Assembly: GCF_003576245.1 (NCBI RefSeq)
Contig: NZ_QWGA01000007.1
Location: 310,001-374,000, forward strand
Direction of reading: 5' to 3'
From: Henriciella algicola
GTDB lineage: Bacteria > Pseudomonadota > Alphaproteobacteria > Caulobacterales > Hyphomonadaceae
Length of the DNA: 64,000 nt
Shown here: positions 1 through 38,434 of the stretch, in pieces
How the letters are laid out: each line of letters begins with the position of its first letter
Position numbering within the stretch: position 1 is the first letter of the stretch
Made by a program: the position numbers and the translations under genes
The notes under the pieces: generated by a model
The model's input: only the letters and a program-made list of their open reading frames with translations
What the model was told of the DNA's origin: nothing
The model's database searches: none

Positions 1-1608
1 GGCGTGGTCTCCTCGCTGGGTAAAGGTATTGCTTCTGCGGCCATGGGTTCGCTGCTGCAGGCGCGTGGCTACAAGGTGAGGCTGCGCAAGCTCGACCCCT
101 ATCTGAACGTTGATCCCGGCACGATGTCGCCGCGCCAGCACGGCGAAGTCTTTGTGACCGATGATGGCGCCGAAACTGATCTCGACCTTGGGCACTATGA
201 GCGCTTCACGGGCGTGTCGGCGCGCCAGTCAGACAACATCACCACTGGCCGCATCTATCAGTCGATCATCGAGAAGGAGCGCCGCGGCGATTTTCTCGGT
301 GCGACGATCCAGGTCATTCCGCACGTCACGGACGCCATCAAGGATTTCATCCTGTCTGATCCGGGCGACGACGTGGATTTCGTGCTCTGTGAAATTGGCG
401 GCACGGTCGGCGACATTGAGGGCCTGCCCTTCTTCGAGGCGATCCGCCAGGTCGGCCAGGAGCTTGGGCCTGAGCGCACCTGCTTTATCCATCTGACACT
501 GCTGCCATACATTCCGGCCGCGGGTGAGATGAAGACCAAGCCGACGCAACACTCCGTCAAGGAGCTTCGCTCCATCGGTATCCAGCCGCAGATCCTGCTG
601 TGCCGCTGTGACCGGCCGATCCCTGAGAATGAGAAGGGCAAGATTGCGAGCTTCTGTAATGTGCGCCCATCAAGCGTCATCGAAGCCCGCGACGTTGGCC
701 ATATCTATGATGTGCCGGCGGCGTATCATGCTGAAGGCCTCGATACCGAAGTTCTCTGGCACTTCCGAATCAATGACGCGCCGCTGCCTGACCTGACCCG
801 TTGGAACGGCATCGCTGATACGATCCACAATCCAGACGGCGAAGTCTGCATTGGTCTGGTCGGCAAATACACCGATGTGCCTGACGCCTATAAGTCAGTC
901 TCCGAAGCGCTGGTCCATGGCGGCCTGGCCAACAAGGTTCGCGTTCAGGTCCGGATGATCGATTCCGAACAGTTCGATGATGAGCATCATCCGCTCGATA
1001 TTCTCGACGGTGTGCACGGCGTCCTCCTGCCGGGCGGGTTCGGCGAGCGCGGCGCGCACGGCAAGATGAGAGCCGCGCAGTTCGCCCGCGAGAAGAACAT
1101 TCCATGCTTTGGTATCTGCTACGGGATGCAGCTTTCCGTCGTCGAGGCGGCTCGCAACCTCGCCGACATCAAGAATGCCTCGACCACGGAGTTTGGTCCG
1201 ACCGATGAACCGGTGGTGGGCCTCATCGAAGAGTGGACCAAGGGCAACCAGAAGATCACGCGGGACGAAAGCACAGACAAGGGCGGCACGATGCGTCTTG
1301 GCGCCTATCCCGCGCTTCTCGAGCCGGGCTCCAAGGTTGCGGAAATCTATGGCACGACCGAGATTTCAGAGCGCCACCGTCACCGTTATGAAGTCAACCG
1401 GTCCTATATCGAGCGCATGAAGGGGACAGGCGTGCGGTTCTCCGGCATGTCGCCGGACGGTCTCCTCCCGGAGATTATCGAGCTGGACGATCATCCGTGG
1501 TTTATCGGCGTGCAGTTCCACCCCGAGCTGAAGTCCCGGCCATTCGAACCACACCCGCTTTTTGCGAGTTTCATTGAAGCAGCCAAAGTGCAGTCACGTC
1601 TCGTCTGA
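1..1608 (+). CDS. pyrG: CTP synthase (5' end outside the window)
   Basis: Makes CTP from UTP, ATP and glutamine in the cytosol, the last step of de novo pyrimidine nucleotide synthesis. The frame is open from the first base (GVVSSLGKG..., the P-loop of the synthetase domain), so only about the first ten residues are missing. The N-terminal amidoligase half shows the P-loop and the [11 protein letters not shown] stretch. The C-terminal glutamine amidotransferase half shows the nucleophile elbow FGICYGMQ and, near the end, the His-Glu motif GVQFHPE. Length (about 535 residues visible) is normal. A short GC hairpin follows the stop. Identification is certain; the start codon cannot be seen. Confidence 0.97.
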
Positions 1609-1627
1609 CGGGTTGCAATTGGCGAGT

Positions 1628-1655
1628 CGCGCGGATATACGCGCGGTTTGATTTT
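1628..1655 (+). terminator. Possible intrinsic terminator of pyrG
   Basis: Six-base arms CGCGCG at 1628-1633 and 1640-1645 can pair around the loop GATATA and are followed by GTTTGATTTT. The stem is short but all GC and the tail is T-rich. A second small hairpin (GTAGTG/CACTAC, 1659-1674) lies just before the rpmF start. The call rests on structure only. Confidence 0.45.
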
Positions 1656-1694
1656 CACGTAGTGTTCCCACTACACACAAACTGGAACGACAAC

Positions 1695-1874
1695 ATGGCA
1701 GTCCCTAAGCGAAAAACGACGCCGTCCAAGCGCAACATGCGCCGCGCCCACGACCGTCTGTCCACCCCGACCTTCATCGAAGACGCGGATTCCGGCGAGC
1801 TTCGCCGTCCGCACCACATCGATCTGAAGACCGGTGTGTATCGTGGTCGCCAGATCCTTGAGCCTAAGGACTAA
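1695..1874 (+). CDS. rpmF: 50S ribosomal protein L32
   Basis: Small basic protein of the large ribosomal subunit. The 59 residues start [20 protein letters not shown], the typical L32 N-terminus of an AVPKRK motif and an Arg/Lys-rich stretch, and end LEPKD. An upstream GTG/TTG-type extension in the same frame is not needed: ATG 1695 gives the family's normal length. The gene stands alone between pyrG and eno. In many bacteria rpmF is next to plsX, which lies at 62221 here without it. Identification is firm. Confidence 0.95.
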
Positions 1875-1921
1875 CGCCACGCGCAGTCTTGCGCTGCGAG
1901 GTGACACAAAGTAACCGACAT

Positions 1922-3261
<1,340 letters not shown>

Positions 3262-3304
3262 GGTCGCCGCGCGGCCATTAAGAGTAAATTTACCCAAATG
3301 GATT

Positions 3305-3340
3305 CCTCTGCCGATTCGCTTGTCGGCAGAGGTTTCTTTT
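3305..3340 (+). terminator. Strong intrinsic terminator downstream of eno
   Basis: A perfect ten-base-pair stem (CCTCTGCCGA 3305-3314, TCGGCAGAGG 3323-3332) with an eight-base loop is followed directly by TTTCTTTT. This is a textbook Rho-independent terminator. Its tail ends at the base before the ATG of ftsB (3341), and the 3' arm carries the only purine-rich stretch (CAGAGG) that could serve as that gene's ribosome binding site. Confidence 0.9.
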
Positions 3341-3640
3341 ATGACCCCCAAATATGCAGCAGCAGCCCTTTCCGCGCTGATCGCATACTTCGCCTATCAC
3401 GCCTTTGCGGGTGAGCAGGGGCTTGGCCGCTGGACCGATCTGCAACAGGAACTGTCAGAAAAGCAGGCCGAGCTTGATGCCATCACGGCAGCGAATGACG
3501 TGCTGCGCCGGGATATTGCACGCCTGACGCCCGGCCGGGTGGATCCCGACCTCGTTGAAATCATGGCCCGTGAAGACCTGAATCTCGTCTATGCTGATGA
3601 GATTATTATCATAAATGACAGCTCCGGGGCTGCATTTTGA
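3341..3640 (+). CDS. ftsB: Septum formation initiator FtsB/DivIC-like
   Basis: Small bitopic divisome protein. The 99 residues have a short N-terminal cytoplasmic part, one hydrophobic segment (AAAALSALIAYFAYHAF, about residues 5-21), then a coiled-coil stretch rich in Leu/Glu/Gln (WTDLQQELSEKQAELDAI...LRRDIARL) and a DPDLVEIMAREDLNLVY motif typical of the DivIC family. The family is known to bridge FtsL and FtsQ in cell division. ATG 3341 is chosen because the hydrophobic segment then sits at the usual distance from the start. A TTG at 3320 in frame lies inside the eno terminator and would add seven residues. Location after eno fits alphaproteobacteria. Confidence 0.85.
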   Translation: MTPKYAAAALSALIAYFAYHAFAGEQGLGRWTDLQQELSEKQAELDAITAANDVLRRDIARLTPGRVDPDLVEIMAREDLNLVYADEIIIINDSSGAAF

Positions 3641-3709
3641 CATAGGTGCTAAAACTGGACGAAGGCCCGTTTCGGGGTACATAAGGGGGTCTTGATAAAG
3701 GGAGGCCTC

Positions 3710-4729
3710 ATGGCCAAAACGCCGTCCAGAAGCAAGACTTCCAAATCTCCACCCAAGCTCCAGCGCGACGAAGCGCTGAAATACTATCGTGACATGCTAT
3801 TGATCCGCCGGTTCGAGGAACGGGCGGGCCAGCTTTATGGCATGGGCAAGATTGCAGGGTTCTGCCACCTCTATATCGGCCAGGAAGCTGTCGTCACCGG
3901 CATGCAGGCCTGTCTGAAAGAGGGTGACCAGATCGTCACCGGCTACCGCGACCACGGTCATATGCTCGCCTGCGACATGGATGCCAAAGGCGTCATGGCA
4001 GAGCTGACCGGCCGCAAGGACGGATATTCGAAGGGCAAGGGCGGCTCGATGCACATGTTCTCGCGGGAGAAGAACTTCTTCGGCGGTCACGGCATTGTTG
4101 GCGCGCAGGTGCCGATTGGCACGGGCCTTGGCTTCTCGAACAAGTATCGCGGCACCGACAATATCTGCGTGACCTATTTCGGCGATGGCGCTGCGAACCA
4201 AGGCCAAGTCTATGAGAGCTTCAACATGGCGTCCCTCTGGGACTTGCCTGTCGTCTATGTGATCGAGAACAACCAGTACGCCATGGGCACGAGCGTCGCG
4301 CGCGCCTCGGCAGAGACCGAGCTGTTCAAGCGCGGTATCTCCTTCGAGATCGAGGGCGAAGAAGTCGACGGCATGGACGTCTATGCCGTGAAAGCGGCCG
4401 GCGAGAAGGCCGTGAAGTACGCCCGCTCCGGAAAGGGGCCGTACATTCTCGAGATGAAAACCTATCGCTATCGCGGCCACTCCATGTCGGACCCGGCAAA
4501 GTACCGCAAGCGTGAAGAAGTTGACGATATCCGCACTCATCACGACCCGATTGACGGCCTCAAGGGGCGCATCCTGGAGCAGGAAATTGCGACCGAGGAG
4601 GAGCTCAAGGATCTCGACAAGGAGATCAAGGAACTGGTGAAAGAAGCTGCGGATTTCTCCCTGGATAGTCCTGAGCCAGACCCGGAAGAGCTCTGGACTG
4701 ATGTGTTGCGTGAAGTGGAGTCTGCCTGA
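3710..4729 (+). CDS. pdhA: Pyruvate dehydrogenase E1 component, alpha subunit
   Basis: Thiamine-diphosphate subunit that decarboxylates pyruvate in the PDH complex, linking glycolysis to the TCA cycle. The 339-residue product has [23 protein letters not shown] at the N-terminal end, the [18 protein letters not shown] active-site region, and the ThDP/Mg motif starting [17 protein letters not shown] and ending [13 protein letters not shown] 3710 is preceded by the strong ribosome site AAAGGGAGG (3697-3705). The stop overlaps the pdhB start (TGATG), so E1-alpha and E1-beta are translationally coupled. First gene of the pdhA-pdhB-DUF5076-pdhC-lpdA operon. Confidence 0.97.
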
Positions 4730-6159
4730 TGGCCATCGATGTTCTGATGCCGGCCCTGTCGCCGACAATGGAAGAGGGCACGCTTGCGCGCTGGCTCAAG
4801 AAGGAAGGCGACACGATTTCGTCTGGTGACGTCATCGCAGAGATTGAGACCGACAAGGCGACGATGGAAGTCGAAGCCGTCGATGAAGGCACGCTCGCCA
4901 AGATCCTCGTGCCTGAAGGCACCGAAAATGTGAAGGTGAATGCGGTCATCGCACGCCTCGCAGAGGAAGGCGAAAGCGCCGAAGATATCGATGATGCGCC
5001 CGCATCTGATGATAGCGAGAATACGTCAAAAGCGCAGACTGAAGCCAAGAACGCGCCTGAGACTGAAGGCGATGGCGATGACAGCGACGAAGCTTCAGCA
5101 GAGGAGGGAGCGTCTGCGCCGCCAAAGCCTGATGAAGACTCGCTGACCGACCCGGACGTCCCTGAGGGCACGAACTTCGTCGACACGAGCGTCCGTGATG
5201 CACTGCGCGATGCAATGGCAGAAGAAATGCGCCGCGACGAGACCGTCTTCGTCATGGGCGAGGAGGTCGCAGAGTATCAGGGCGCCTACAAGGTCACCCG
5301 GGAGTTGCTGCAGGAGTTTGGCGACAAGCGCGTCGTCGATACGCCAATCACAGAGCATGGCTTTGCTGGCCTCGGTGTCGGCGCGGCCTTTGGCGGCCTC
5401 AAGCCTGTCGTTGAGTTCATGACGTTCAACTTCGCGATGCAGGCGATCGACCAGATCATCAACTCGGCAGCCAAGACGCTCTACATGTCCGGCGGCCAGA
5501 TGGGTTGCCCGATTGTGTTCCGCGGACCGAATGGCGCGGCTTCCCGCGTCGCCGCCCAGCACAGCCAGGATTACTCCTCCTGGTATGCGCATGTCCCGGG
5601 CCTCAAAGTCGTTGCGCCCTATGATGCGGCTGATGCGAAAGGCCTCCTCAAGGCGGCGATCCGCGACCCGAATCCGGTCGTCTTTCTTGAGCATGAGCTG
5701 CTCTATGGCGAGAGCTTCCCGGTTCCCGACATTGAGGACTATGTCCTGCCGATTGGTAAGGCGCGTGTTCGTCGTCCAGGCGCGGATGTGACTCTGGTTG
5801 CGCACTCCCGTATGGTCGGCTTCGCGCTTCAGGCGGCTGAAAAGCTTGCAGAAGATGGCATTGAAGCAGAGGTCATCGACCTGCGCTCGCTGCGTCCGCT
5901 GGACACGGCGACCGTCATTGAAAGCGTCAAGAAAACCAACCGCATTGTGACGTGTGAGGAAGGCTGGCGCTTCATGGGCGTGGGTGCCGAAATCTGCGCA
6001 ACGGTGGTGAACGAAGCGTTCGATTATCTTGATGCGCCTCCAACCCGCGTGCATCAGAAAGATGTGCCGCTTCCATACGCTGCAAACCTCGAAGCCATGA
6101 GCCTTCCGGGCACCGCAGACATCATCAAGGCGGCCAAGCAGGTGTGTTATGTCAAGTGA
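4729..6159 (+). CDS. pdhB: Pyruvate dehydrogenase E1 beta with N-terminal lipoyl domain
   Basis: Second E1 subunit of PDH. Residues 1-80 form a lipoyl domain ([17 protein letters not shown], lipoylated Lys in [15 protein letters not shown]). Residues 85-140 are an acidic Ala/Glu/Asp-rich linker, and from about residue 145 the transketolase-like E1-beta fold begins ([50 protein letters not shown]). The lipoyl-E1-beta fusion is a known alphaproteobacterial arrangement. A 53-base stretch of the lipoyl domain is identical to one in pdhC. The 3' end overlaps the next gene by 11 bases. Confidence 0.97.
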
Positions 6160-6472
6160 TCACAAAGAACTCTCCAAGCCCGGCACGATCCAGCAGGACG
6201 CCTTTGCGCAGGAAATGATCCGGTTCTGGATCTCGAACAATCAGGACCATGTGAGCCTGAAAGTCGGCGCTTCGGGTGACCCGGAAAAAGAGCCGCCCAT
6301 GTGGGGTTTCATGCTGGCCGACATCGCCAAACATGTGACACGCGTGCTGCGCGAAGAAAATCCTGACGGTCCGTCCGCGCAGGAGATCATGGAGCAGATC
6401 CTTGGCGGCATCGGCGAACGACTTCGCCATGCGCCAGACCTCTCGGGCACCACGATCAAGGGCAAGAGCTAA
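6149..6472 (+). CDS. DUF5076-family protein of the PDH operon
   Basis: A 107-residue soluble protein with no signal peptide or membrane segment. It resembles the DUF5076 family seen in alphaproteobacteria, from general recall and not a search. Visible features are [22 protein letters not shown], a likely beta-strand start, and [18 protein letters not shown] followed by a helical C-terminal half. The gene overlaps the end of pdhB by 11 bases and its TAA shares one base with the pdhC ATG, so it is embedded in and coupled to the PDH operon. A role in PDH assembly or regulation is a guess from position; no catalytic motif is visible. Confidence 0.75.
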
Positions 6473-7917
6473 TGGCCATCAATATTACCATGCCCGCACT
6501 TTCTCCGACCATGGAGGAGGGCACGCTCGCCCGTTGGATGGTGAAGCCTGGCGATACGATCTCTTCGGGCGATGTCATTGCGGAGATTGAGACCGACAAG
6601 GCGACGATGGAAGTCGAAGCCGTCGATGAAGGCACAATCGCCAAGATCGTTGTGGAAGCCGGCACGGAAGGCGTGAAGGTCAATTCGGTGATCGCCGTGC
6701 TCGCTGAAGAGGGCGAAGACCCGGACAATGTGGAAGCGCCGGAAGCGGCAACAGCTGGCGGTAGCGAGAAGAGCGACGACTCTTCCAATGATGACGAGGA
6801 GGCTGAAAAGCCTGCCAAGTCTGAAGAGAAAAAGGCGCCCGACGATAAGCCCAAAAAGAGCGATGCCGAGCGCACAACCTCCACGGGTGACAGCGCCCAG
6901 AAGCCGCGCGAGGCCGAAGGCAAGGACGTGCGCAAGGAGTTGGAAGGCACATCGCCAAAGCTCGCTGATGTCGGCAGTGGCAAGGACCGCATCAAGGCAA
7001 GCCCGCTGGCGCGCCGTATCGCGGCGCTGCGTGATATTGATCTCTCCACGCTTGAGGGCTCTGGCCCGCGTGGACGGATCGTGAAAGCAGATGTCGAGGC
7101 CGCAGAGCCCCGCAAGAAGCAGGCAGCTTCTGAGAAGAAGGCGGCAGACGCCCCAGCCGATACGGCGAAGGCTGCGCCTGATGGCCTGATCCTGCCGCAG
7201 GTGCTCGATGATCGCGTCTATGATCCAGAGAGCTATGAGCTGAAGCCGCTCGACGGCATGCGCAAGACTGTGGCGAAACGCCTGACCCAGAGCTTCATGC
7301 AGGTCCCGCACTTCCCACTCAACGTGGATATCAAGCTCGACAAGCTTCTGGCTTCCCGCGCCGATATCAACGAAGCCGCACCTGAAGGCGTGAAAATCTC
7401 GGTCAACGACATGCTGATCAAGGCATCAGCCCTGGCGCTGATGTCTGAGCCGGATTGCAATGCAAGCTTCACTGATAAGGGCATCGCCTACCACAAATCG
7501 GCGCACATCTCGGTCGCTGTTGCGATCGATGGCGGGTTGATTACGCCGGTGATCCGCGATGCGCAGACCAAGGGTCTTGCCACCATCTCGCGTGAGATGA
7601 GGGACCTTGCGACCCGCGCACGTGAGAGGAAGCTCAAGCCGCAGGAATATTCGGGCGGCACGTTCTCGATTTCCAATCTCGGCATGTTCGGCATCAAATC
7701 TTTCGGCTCGATCATCAACCAGCCGGAAGGCATGATCCTGTCGGTCGGGGCAGGCGAGAAGCGTCCTGTCGTTGATGACGCCGGTGAAATCGTGCCGGCG
7801 ACCGTCATGACGGTCACGCTGTCCTGCGACCACCGTGTCATTGGCGGGGCTGAGGGCGCAAAATGGCTGGCCGCATTCAAGCGTTACGTCGAACATCCGC
7901 AAAGCATGCTGCTCTAA
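6472..7917 (+). CDS. pdhC: Dihydrolipoamide acetyltransferase (PDH E2)
   Basis: Core of the PDH complex; transfers acetyl from lipoyl to CoA. Residues 1-80 are a lipoyl domain (Lys in [15 protein letters not shown]). A charged linker follows, then a peripheral subunit-binding domain (about 177-212, [20 protein letters not shown]) and, after a second linker, the catalytic domain from about residue 250 ([35 protein letters not shown]). The catalytic His motif is [10 protein letters not shown] (His454), whereas the family pattern is HxxxDG, so the conserved Asp is Gly458 here. One lipoyl domain and 481 residues are normal for alphaproteobacteria. Confidence 0.96.
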
Positions 7918-7932
7918 AACTGGAGGCCAAGA

Positions 7933-9342
7933 ATGGCTGACTATGATCTCATCGTCATCGGCTCCGGCCCTGGCGGCTATGTCGCCGCGATCCGCGCAAG
8001 CCAACTCGGCATGAAGACGGCGATCGTCGAACGCGAGAGTCTTGGCGGCATCTGTCTCAATTGGGGCTGTATCCCGACCAAGGCGTTGCTGCGGTCTGCC
8101 GAAGTGCTGCACTATGCGAACAACGCCAAGGATTTTGGTCTGAAGATCGACAAGGCTGACTTCGATCTCGAAGCCGTCGTGAAGCGGTCGCGCGGCGTCG
8201 CAAAGCAGCTGTCATCCGGTGTCAGCCACTTGATGAAGAAGAACAAGATCGACGTGATCATGGGCGAAGCAAGCCTTAAGAAGGGCAAGCCAGCGCCGAC
8301 CGTTTCTGTGAAAGAAAAGGACGGAAAGTCAAAAGAATACAAGGCGAAGAACGTCATTCTTGCGACGGGGGCTCGGGCACGGGCCATTCCTCAGGCTGGG
8401 CTTGAGCCGGACGGTGATCTGATCTGGACCTATCGCGAAGCCATGGTGCCGAAAGAGACGCCAAAGAAGCTTCTCGTCATCGGTTCAGGTGCAATCGGGA
8501 TTGAGTTCGCCAGCTTCTACAATGAGCTTGGAAGCGACGTGACTGTCGTTGAGGCCGTAGACCGGATTCTGCCTGTTGAGGATGAGGAAATCTCTGGCCT
8601 CGCGCGTAAGCAGTTCGAGAAGCAGGGCATCAAGTTCCACACGGGCGCGCAGGTCAAGTCGCTGAAGAAGTCGAACGGCAAGGTCACGGCCGACATCTCT
8701 TCAGGCGACAAGACCGAGAAGCTGGAAGTCGACCGGGTGATCCTCGCAATCGGCATTGTCGGCAATGTTGAAGGCCTCGGCCTCGAAGAGCTCGGCGTTA
8801 AGGTCGAGAAGACCCACGTTCTCGTCGACGGTTTCGGCCGCACAGGCGTGGACGGCCTCTATGCCATCGGTGATCTCACTGGCGCTCCCTGGCTGGCCCA
8901 CAAGGCGAGCCATGAAGGCGTCATGTGCGTTGAAGGGATCGCAGGCGCCGAGGATGCACACGCATTCGACGCCTGGAATGTGCCCGGCTGCACCTATTCG
9001 CACCCGCAGATCGCCAGCGTTGGGCTCACTGAAGCCAAGGCGAAAGAGGCCGGCCACAAGATCAAGGTGGGTAAGTTTCCCTTCATCGGCAATGGCAAGG
9101 CAATTGCGCTTGGCGCTGCTGAAGGTCTCGTGAAGACGGTCTTCGACGCTGAGACAGGCGAGCTTCTCGGCGCGCACATGATTGGCGCCGAAGTCACTGA
9201 GCTCATTCAGGGCTATGTCATTGCGCGTGAAGGTGAGCTCACCGAAGAGACGTTGATGCACACGGTCTTCCCGCACCCGACCCTGTCAGAGATGATGCAT
9301 GAGAGCGTGCTCGCCTCACAGGGGCGTGTCCTTCACATGTAG
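7933..9342 (+). CDS. lpdA: Dihydrolipoyl dehydrogenase (PDH E3)
   Basis: FAD enzyme that reoxidises dihydrolipoyl groups with NAD+. The 469 residues show the FAD fold GSGPGGYVAAIRASQLG (10-26), the redox disulfide segment GGICLNWGCIPTKALL (two Cys six apart), an NAD-binding GSGAIGIEFASFYNELG, the second FAD motif GLYAIGDLTGAPWLAHKASHEG and the C-terminal catalytic HPHPTLSE-type segment (FPHPTLSEMMHES). The ribosome site GGAGG lies 7-11 bases before the ATG. Last gene of the PDH operon; it probably also serves 2-oxoglutarate dehydrogenase unless another copy exists elsewhere. Confidence 0.97.
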   Translation: MADYDLIVIGSGPGGYVAAIRASQLGMKTAIVERESLGGICLNWGCIPTKALLRSAEVLHYANNAKDFGLKIDKADFDLEAVVKRSRGVAKQLSSGVSHLMKKNKIDVIMGEASLKKGKPAPTVSVKEKDGKSKEYKAKNVILATGARARAIPQAGLEPDGDLIWTYREAMVPKETPKKLLVIGSGAIGIEFASFYNELGSDVTVVEAVDRILPVEDEEISGLARKQFEKQGIKFHTGAQVKSLKKSNGKVTADISSGDKTEKLEVDRVILAIGIVGNVEGLGLEELGVKVEKTHVLVDGFGRTGVDGLYAIGDLTGAPWLAHKASHEGVMCVEGIAGAEDAHAFDAWNVPGCTYSHPQIASVGLTEAKAKEAGHKIKVGKFPFIGNGKAIALGAAEGLVKTVFDAETGELLGAHMIGAEVTELIQGYVIAREGELTEETLMHTVFPHPTLSEMMHESVLASQGRVLHM

Positions 9343-38026: not shown

Positions 38027-38434
38027 ATGGCGCTGACTGAAACGACGTTTGCAAACTGGCTCCAATCGTTTGGACAGGCTTTGTCAGCGCTCAACAGCAA
38101 GCGTATCGTCGAACTCTTCTCAGAGGACGTCAGCTTCCACTGGACGCCGTTTGACGCGCCGAGCGAAGGGCGCAAAGCGCTGCTGGCGGCGATGCAGGAA
38201 AGACTGAGCCGGCAAAAAGACCCGGTCCTCGATTTCGATATCATCGCAATCAGCGAAGACGCGGGCTGGGCCCACTGGACGGCCTCATTCACGCGCGATG
38301 GCACGGATGATCCGGTTCGTGTGGACGGCATCCTAAAGGCAACCTTTCGGGGCAGTGAATGCTGCGAATATCGACAGTGGCAGCATGTGCTGGAGCCGGG
38401 CCAGGGCGACCTCATGCGAGACTTCGACGCCTGA
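38027..38434 (+). CDS. NTF2-like (SnoaL/DUF4440-type) small protein
   Basis: A 135-residue protein with the NTF2-like cone pattern: FANWLQSFGQALSALNSKRIVELFSEDVSFHWTPF, then GRKALLAAMQERL and a run of beta strands ending ATFRGSECCEYRQWQHVLE. Members include hydrolases, isomerases and binding proteins, and the active-site residues cannot be assigned here. It starts nine bases after sufB, so it is in the same transcript. It is not a standard suf component. Confidence 0.65.
   Translation: MALTETTFANWLQSFGQALSALNSKRIVELFSEDVSFHWTPFDAPSEGRKALLAAMQERLSRQKDPVLDFDIIAISEDAGWAHWTASFTRDGTDDPVRVDGILKATFRGSECCEYRQWQHVLEPGQGDLMRDFDA

Follow-up and report, generated by a model that had tools for sequence, protein, structure and literature searches.

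A hairpin between eno and ftsB of Henriciella holds the ftsB ribosome site and may overlap a CtrA-type ftsB promoter

Introduction

In the 3.2 Mb genome of Henriciella algicola (genus Henriciella, family Hyphomonadaceae), the gene for the septum protein DivIC/FtsB has the enolase gene eno as its upstream neighbour, and a first-pass annotation of this DNA placed the ribosome site of ftsB within a terminator-like hairpin lying between the two. This raises the question of how a division protein can be made from a gene whose ribosome site is part of a structure that would both end the upstream transcript and be folded away in any RNA that continued past it. The annotation had answered that a readthrough transcript, or one from a promoter downstream of the hairpin, would be needed, and that the layout could couple ftsB output to transcription or folding. 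The analysis described here, made on the window (the whole stretch of 64,000 nt, whose positions are used throughout) and on the corresponding loci of other genomes, points to another arrangement, in which the short eno-ftsB junction would serve as insulator and promoter at once and FtsB would be made from a CtrA-type promoter of its own. We hold this reading with moderate confidence.

Results

The ftsB ribosome site lies in the 3' arm of a terminator-shaped hairpin

In the window, eno occupies positions 1987-3261 (+ strand; Pfam Enolase_C, 426 bits, and Enolase_N, 201 bits) and ftsB positions 3341-3640 (+ strand), the 99 aa product of the latter matching Pfam DivIC with 55.6 bits. This match, together with the alignment of the ATG at 3341 with the starts found in relatives, supports 3341 as the real ftsB start, as had been assumed. 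An in-frame TTG at 3320 was tried as an alternative start and rejected: it falls in the loop of the hairpin described below, and the relatives align with the ATG at 3341. Elsewhere in the window, downstream of the E1 gene, an ORF of 107 aa (6149-6472, + strand) was noted between those at 4729-6159 and 6472-7917.

Between eno and ftsB, a hairpin at 3305-3332 (+ strand) has the form CCTCTGCCGAT-TCGCTT-GTCGGCAGAGG, its 5' arm (3305-3315) and 3' arm (3322-3332) forming 11 pairs, ten of them Watson-Crick and one G-U, around the loop TCGCTT (3316-3321), which was placed by sequence and fold. It is followed by the T-tract TTTCTTTT (3333-3340, + strand), in which seven of the eight bases are T and which gives eno the shape of an intrinsic terminator: a G+C-rich stem, a short loop and a T-rich tail. 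The hairpin of ten base pairs that had been reported as abutting the ATG is therefore real, with its T-tract ending at 3340, except that its pairs number 11 and not ten. When both strands of the 64 kb were searched, it was the sole stem that had 7 bp or more, 4 or more of them G-C, a loop of 3-8 and at least 6 T in the next 8 nt, in keeping with its earlier description as terminator-like. Folding of the RNA of 3290-3360 gave -25 kcal/mol (z -5.0), and none of 200 shuffled sequences was equally stable.

The 3' arm carries the purine stretch AGAGG (3328-3332), and with it the Shine-Dalgarno sequence GAGG (3329-3332). The best match to the anti-Shine-Dalgarno sequence before ftsB, GAGG(T), ends 7 bases upstream of the ATG and is ∼80% paired in the fold, which agrees with the original placement of the ribosome site inside this arm. 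Among the leaders (the 55 nt upstream) of 62 gene starts in the window, which were called by a simple rule and of which some may be wrong, that of ftsB was the most structured, with a z of -6.3, the next being -2.25. Since the ftsB leader ranks first among these starts, and since the hairpin is the only one of its kind in the 64 kb, its position over the ftsB ribosome site does not look like a product of chance. A known regulatory RNA was also considered and ruled out: no Rfam family reached its gathering score within 2900-3800, the best being RF02431 with 25 bits against the 55 required.

The hairpin recurs in Henriciella and beyond with changed sequences

Conservation was surveyed in 120 genomes, 97 of which, the source genome included, had an FtsB match. 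From these, 90 loci were taken, the 7 weakest being omitted, and three of them (L081, L083 and L087) were dropped when the FtsB match was lost in tblastn. The 87 usable loci, which are related and so not independent, comprise 27 from Henriciella, drawn from 29 genomes of the genus, and 60 others; five of the latter come from the seven g3 genomes searched, two of which had no FtsB match. The record of L105 is titled Candidatus Sulfopaludibacter and has an eno 79% identical to that of the window; its title looks wrong.

Within Henriciella, a leader z <= -2.5 over the 55 nt before ftsB was found in 23 of the 27 loci (mean -4.4), against one locus (mean -0.5) at the eno start, a control that covers 25 of the 27. 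The exceptions were L007 (-2.3), L020 (-1.3), L024 (-0.7) and L027 (-0.7); in L020 and L027, eno lies just upstream of ftsB and yet the folds are weak, which counts against the model. The ribosome site was paired at 74% or more in 24 of the 27 loci, L024, L027 and L036 being the exceptions, and the gap from the end of eno to ftsB measured 51-155 nt in 25. A gene other than eno precedes ftsB in L019 and L024; the hairpin is weaker in the former (z -3.2, no T-run) and absent from the latter.

Outside the genus, a clear form of the feature (z <= -2.5 with a paired ribosome site) was present in 6 of the 60 loci, whose starts were picked by rule and may in some cases be wrong. These six are L029, the one locus of g9, and the five loci of g3 (L060, L062, L066, L069 and L073), and all carry the hairpin with other sequences. 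L061 was doubtful, seven further loci had z <= -2.5 with an unpaired ribosome site, and the feature was absent from the loci of g5 and g8. Conservation in related genomes, which had been proposed as a check on the hairpin, was thus found in most of Henriciella, in all g3 loci and in g9.

The stems themselves differ in type. The 14 loci of group A have CCTCTGCCGATTCG-type arms and the nine of group B have GGTGTTCCTAC-type arms, while L024, L027, L028 and L036 fitted neither group by eye and stand outside all pair counts. These counts were made on 11 of the 14 group A rows (set A1, from which the near-identical L003-L005 were omitted) and on a second set, A2, of 9 rows. In group A, 92.2% of the cells were paired, and the covariation score was 0.245; shuffled alignments gave 0.179, with 1 of 500 reaching the real score, and slid ones did not go above 0.137. 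In group B, 81.6% were paired and the score was 0.192, compared with 0.117 when shuffled (2 of 500 as high). For paired cells and covariation score alike, the real alignments surpassed their shuffled and slid controls. Pairs changed on both sides did not go beyond the shuffles, 52 of 500 being as high for group A and 61 of 500 for group B, nor did the further pair types clearly do so (69 and 42 of 500, respectively), and one slid version of group B showed more pair types than the real alignment (11 versus 9). Of the 11 columns in each arm of group A, 7 were invariant in the 5' arm, whose DNA would on this model belong to the promoter as well, and 3 in the 3' arm. Group B showed the reverse, its 3' arm being slightly better kept than its 5' arm, a result that counts against the model.

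A CtrA-type box and CcrM-type sites lie before and inside the 5' arm

A CtrA-type box, TTAAGAGTAAATTTACC, at 3278-3294 (+ strand), is the probable activator site of an ftsB promoter; its second half, TTTA, carries one mismatch. Among the 14 occurrences of TTWACC on the two strands of the window, this is the only one in the context TTAA(<=1 mismatch)-N7-TTWACC, and on the whole + strand it is the single TTAA-N7-TTAA box (<=1 mismatch). Genome-wide, the exact sequence TTAAN7TTWACC occurs 11 times (two of the occurrences overlapping, one on each strand) and its reversed pattern 4 times, which is only a mild enrichment. CtrA is encoded in the genome (NF045991, 400.2 bits, the cut-off being 350). 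In H. neptunium, ftsB (HNE_1978) is directly controlled by CtrA, whose motif is TTAA-N7-TTAAC (PMC7200025). That case belongs to another genus, and CtrA control of the Henriciella ftsB, as suggested by the box and the regulator gene, is putative.

When the 75 nt before ftsB were scanned for TTAA-N7-TTAA, with at most 1 mismatch of 8, a box was found in 24 of the 27 Henriciella loci, in 5 of 5 from g3 (L062 carrying one further box) and in 3 of 3 from g8, and in none of the 12 from g5 or the single one from g9. In L015, L017 and L021, the first half of the box is TAAA, in which the stop codon of eno may be contained. The distance from the second half to the start codon was 43-52 nt in Henriciella, 47-52 nt in g3 and 27-32 nt in g8; in this survey, therefore, a far box pairs with the hairpin and a near box goes without it. 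The g8 loci with the box merely 27-32 nt upstream of the ftsB start, and with no hairpin, are L026, L030 and L037. The g5 loci have no full box, but in 9 of the 12 a TTAACC lies 27-29 nt before the start. In five of them (L032-L035 and L038), it lies 27-28 nt upstream of the ATG, a separate stem follows eno and the Shine-Dalgarno match is of at most 3 bases; the ftsB of these five may be leaderless, which would be another way of avoiding translation from eno RNA.

Two CcrM-type sites, GATTC at 3301-3305 and GATTCG at 3313-3318 (GATTC 3313-3317), both on the + strand, start 12 nt apart and both overlap the 5' arm of the hairpin. At the first site, GANTC stands at the same column in 11 of 11 A1 rows; the second is at the distance expected of a -10 element and is unlike the -10 consensus. 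The GANTC pair is present in all 11 group A rows and absent from group B. In the same 11 rows, GATTCG always begins 24 nt after the CtrA half site does, while the spacing between GATTCG and the last base of the start codon ranges over 3 nt in group A (the start codon having been added to the row of L006). Genome-wide, GANTC-N7-GANTC occurs in 6 places, compared with 23 for the reversed pattern, and four of the five places other than this one fall in open frames 500 nt or longer.

The density of GANTC in the 60 nt before ftsB, taken over the 27 Henriciella loci and L029, was 19.6 per kb (33 in 1680 nt), compared with 1.95 per kb for the same loci. Part of this excess is to be expected, since the intergenic DNA of CcrM-bearing bacteria is known to be richer in GANTC (PMC3973325); this, and the fast shifting of GcrA/CcrM targets between relatives (PMC7987155), makes the GcrA/CcrM part of the case weaker. 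GcrA is encoded in the genome (166 bits), as is a protein with a RAMA domain like that of CcrM (69 bits), a domain found in Caulobacter only among 14 control genomes. Over the window as a whole (1-64000), GANTC is strongly depleted, with 90 sites against the ∼234 expected from base composition.

Transcripts from the predicted ftsB start would lack the full stem

In Caulobacter, full CtrA motifs begin near -35, with values of -39 at ctrA P2 and -49 at podJ P1, and GANTC sites lie at -28/-29 (ctrA P1) or -24 (podJ P2) (PMC4287350). Applied to positions 3278 and 3301, these spacings predict an ftsB transcription start zone at ∼3313-3330 (+ strand), which reaches from the last bases of the 5' arm across the loop into the 3' arm and in which ftsB transcription probably starts. 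An RNA starting within 3313-3330 could not form the full stem. The second GATTC is a misfit, as the same Caulobacter spacing would set the start at 3337-3342, outside the predicted zone. A scan of 1-9000 for E. coli-type promoters found none, compared with 2.7 in shuffled sequence. Neither of two Caulobacter studies (PMC4287350, PMC3973325) names ftsB in its main text. The promoter first suggested to lie downstream of the hairpin would instead probably overlap its 5' arm, where the CtrA-type box (3278-3294) and the two GATTC sites are gathered.

The predicted cost of opening the region from -14 to +3 around the ftsB start had a median of 16.8 kcal/mol in the readthrough RNA, against 4.3-4.9 kcal/mol in RNAs beginning at three assumed starts, and all 27 loci showed the lower value in the latter. 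Shortening an RNA always removes some structure. When the leaders of 60 window starts, called by the same simple rule and in some cases perhaps wrongly, were cut as a control, the opening cost fell by a median of 1.7, and by 11.1 at ftsB, which is the second largest drop and not the first. The start at 38027 (+ strand), itself a simple call, showed a drop slightly above that of ftsB. The Shine-Dalgarno sequence was more open in the assumed own transcript in 23 of the 25 rows listed, often only in part, with an unpaired fraction of 0.17-0.80. These predictions uphold the claim that ftsB needs another transcript, the ribosome site being locked by folding in the run-on RNA. They go against the claim that readthrough would suffice: at the window locus, the predicted opening cost in the readthrough RNA is 17.4 kcal/mol, and readthrough alone would be of no help because the ribosome site would remain locked.

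Termination, switching and processing as alternative explanations

The structure might be a plain eno terminator that happens to adjoin ftsB, the ribosome site in its 3' arm being a by-product of crowding. Its canonical shape, with 7 T in 8, the fact that the window yielded no second terminator of this kind and the short gaps in Henriciella would all fit this explanation. However, four or more consecutive T were present within the last 10 nt in 12 of the 27 Henriciella loci, and such a run was missing from the other 15 and from L029, and 11 of those 15 keep a leader z <= -2.5; the run is also missing from three of the five g3 hairpins (L066, L069 and L073), L060 and L062 having one. In L009, L010, L012, L013, L016, L028 and L029, moreover, the stem reaches the base adjoining the start codon, and the pairing of the ribosome site at 0.74 or above in 24 of 27 loci also speaks against a plain terminator, which we think unlikely. 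Termination as the sole role was rejected on the loss of the T-run from loci that keep a strong fold. Since the hairpin recurs with changed sequences and the T-run is found in only 12 of 27, what is kept seems, from these comparisons, to be the hiding of the ribosome site and not termination alone.

The sequestered ribosome site, and the 15 Henriciella loci that have no T-run there, most of them with short gaps after eno, would also suit a regulated translational switch, with the eno-ftsB RNA as the main message and a protein, ligand, temperature or small RNA opening the hairpin. We give this little credence: the leader folds reach as low as -27 kcal/mol, no Rfam family reached its gathering score in 2900-3800, and the stem sequences vary between clades. 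An RNA thermometer in particular was set aside by judgement, the fold being considered very stable for one. The eno-ftsB RNA might instead be cut by a nuclease in the hairpin, which would free the ribosome site and make the 3' end of eno, an arrangement suited to the T-less species and to co-directional genes. This too appears improbable, given that stems of ∼9-18 pairs, such as those seen here, are short for RNase III, and that processing would leave the CtrA box and its fixed 24-nt spacing unexplained.

Discussion

The explanation preferred here, that of an insulator and an ftsB promoter sharing one short junction, would operate as follows. RNA running on from eno would fold the hairpin, and transcription would stop where the T-tract is present; in any RNA reading through, the ftsB ribosome site would be locked in the 3' arm. 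The promoter of ftsB would use the CtrA box and, in this clade, the GANTC sites just before and inside the DNA of the 5' arm, and its transcript, with its first base in the last part of the 5' arm, the loop or the 3' arm, would form no stem and expose the ribosome site. FtsB output would then track CtrA, and perhaps GcrA/CcrM, as regulators of the cell cycle rather than the transcription of enolase. Of this model, the hairpin, its recurrence under changed sequences, the disappearance of the T-run, the positions of the boxes and the regulator genes are computational findings; the transcription start, the action of CtrA or GcrA at this junction, termination and the block to translation are inferred. 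The layout had at first been thought to couple ftsB output to transcription; more likely, it uncouples ftsB from the transcription of eno.

A bolder version of this model, which we consider possible and rather doubtful as a whole, would have one palindrome act as three devices: the terminator of eno, a translation lock on run-on RNA and a methylation- and CtrA-timed promoter of ftsB, with FtsB being made only from cell-cycle-timed transcripts. The lock would then occur in three genera with differing sequences and outlive the terminator, while the sister genera with a nearer box, in which ftsB looks leaderless, would need none.

A comparable arrangement is known from phage T4. At gene e, the ribosome site is buried in a structure that forms in the long transcripts arriving from upstream, whereas the late transcripts begin beyond the 5' portion of that structure, are free of it and are translated well; in related phages, a late promoter is retained in the DNA that encodes the 5' strand of the structure, and similar ribosome-site structures exist in T4 at soc, 49 and I-TevI (PMC3014915). 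The ftsB junction resembles gene e in that the ribosome site would be locked in the long RNA, here by folding only, and in that its own transcript, predicted from box spacing only, would start past the 5' arm. It differs in concerning a chromosomal division gene, in having CtrA and GANTC boxes where T4 has late promoters, in the presence of a T-run in 12 of 27 loci, and in being a case made by computation only. With the CtrA promoters of Caulobacter and Hyphomonas it shares a TTAA-N7-TTAA-type box before a division gene, but here the promoter would overlap an RNA hairpin and terminator, and CtrA binding is putative. Its G+C-rich stem, short loop and T-rich tail are those of intrinsic (Rho-independent) terminators, from which it departs in that the 3' arm holds the ribosome site of the next gene and that the tail is missing from many relatives that retain the stem. 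Among the titles and abstract openings listed from open-licence papers, none describes a ribosome-site hairpin overlapped by a promoter in this way.

If the model is right, a hairpin annotated as a terminator can be selected mainly as a translation lock, and some caution is called for, as terminator calls beside start codons may overlap promoters. The junction would be a chromosomal version of the gene e trick of T4, applied to a division gene, and a cell-cycle-timed gene lying behind a housekeeping gene would be shielded from it at the levels of both RNA synthesis and translation.
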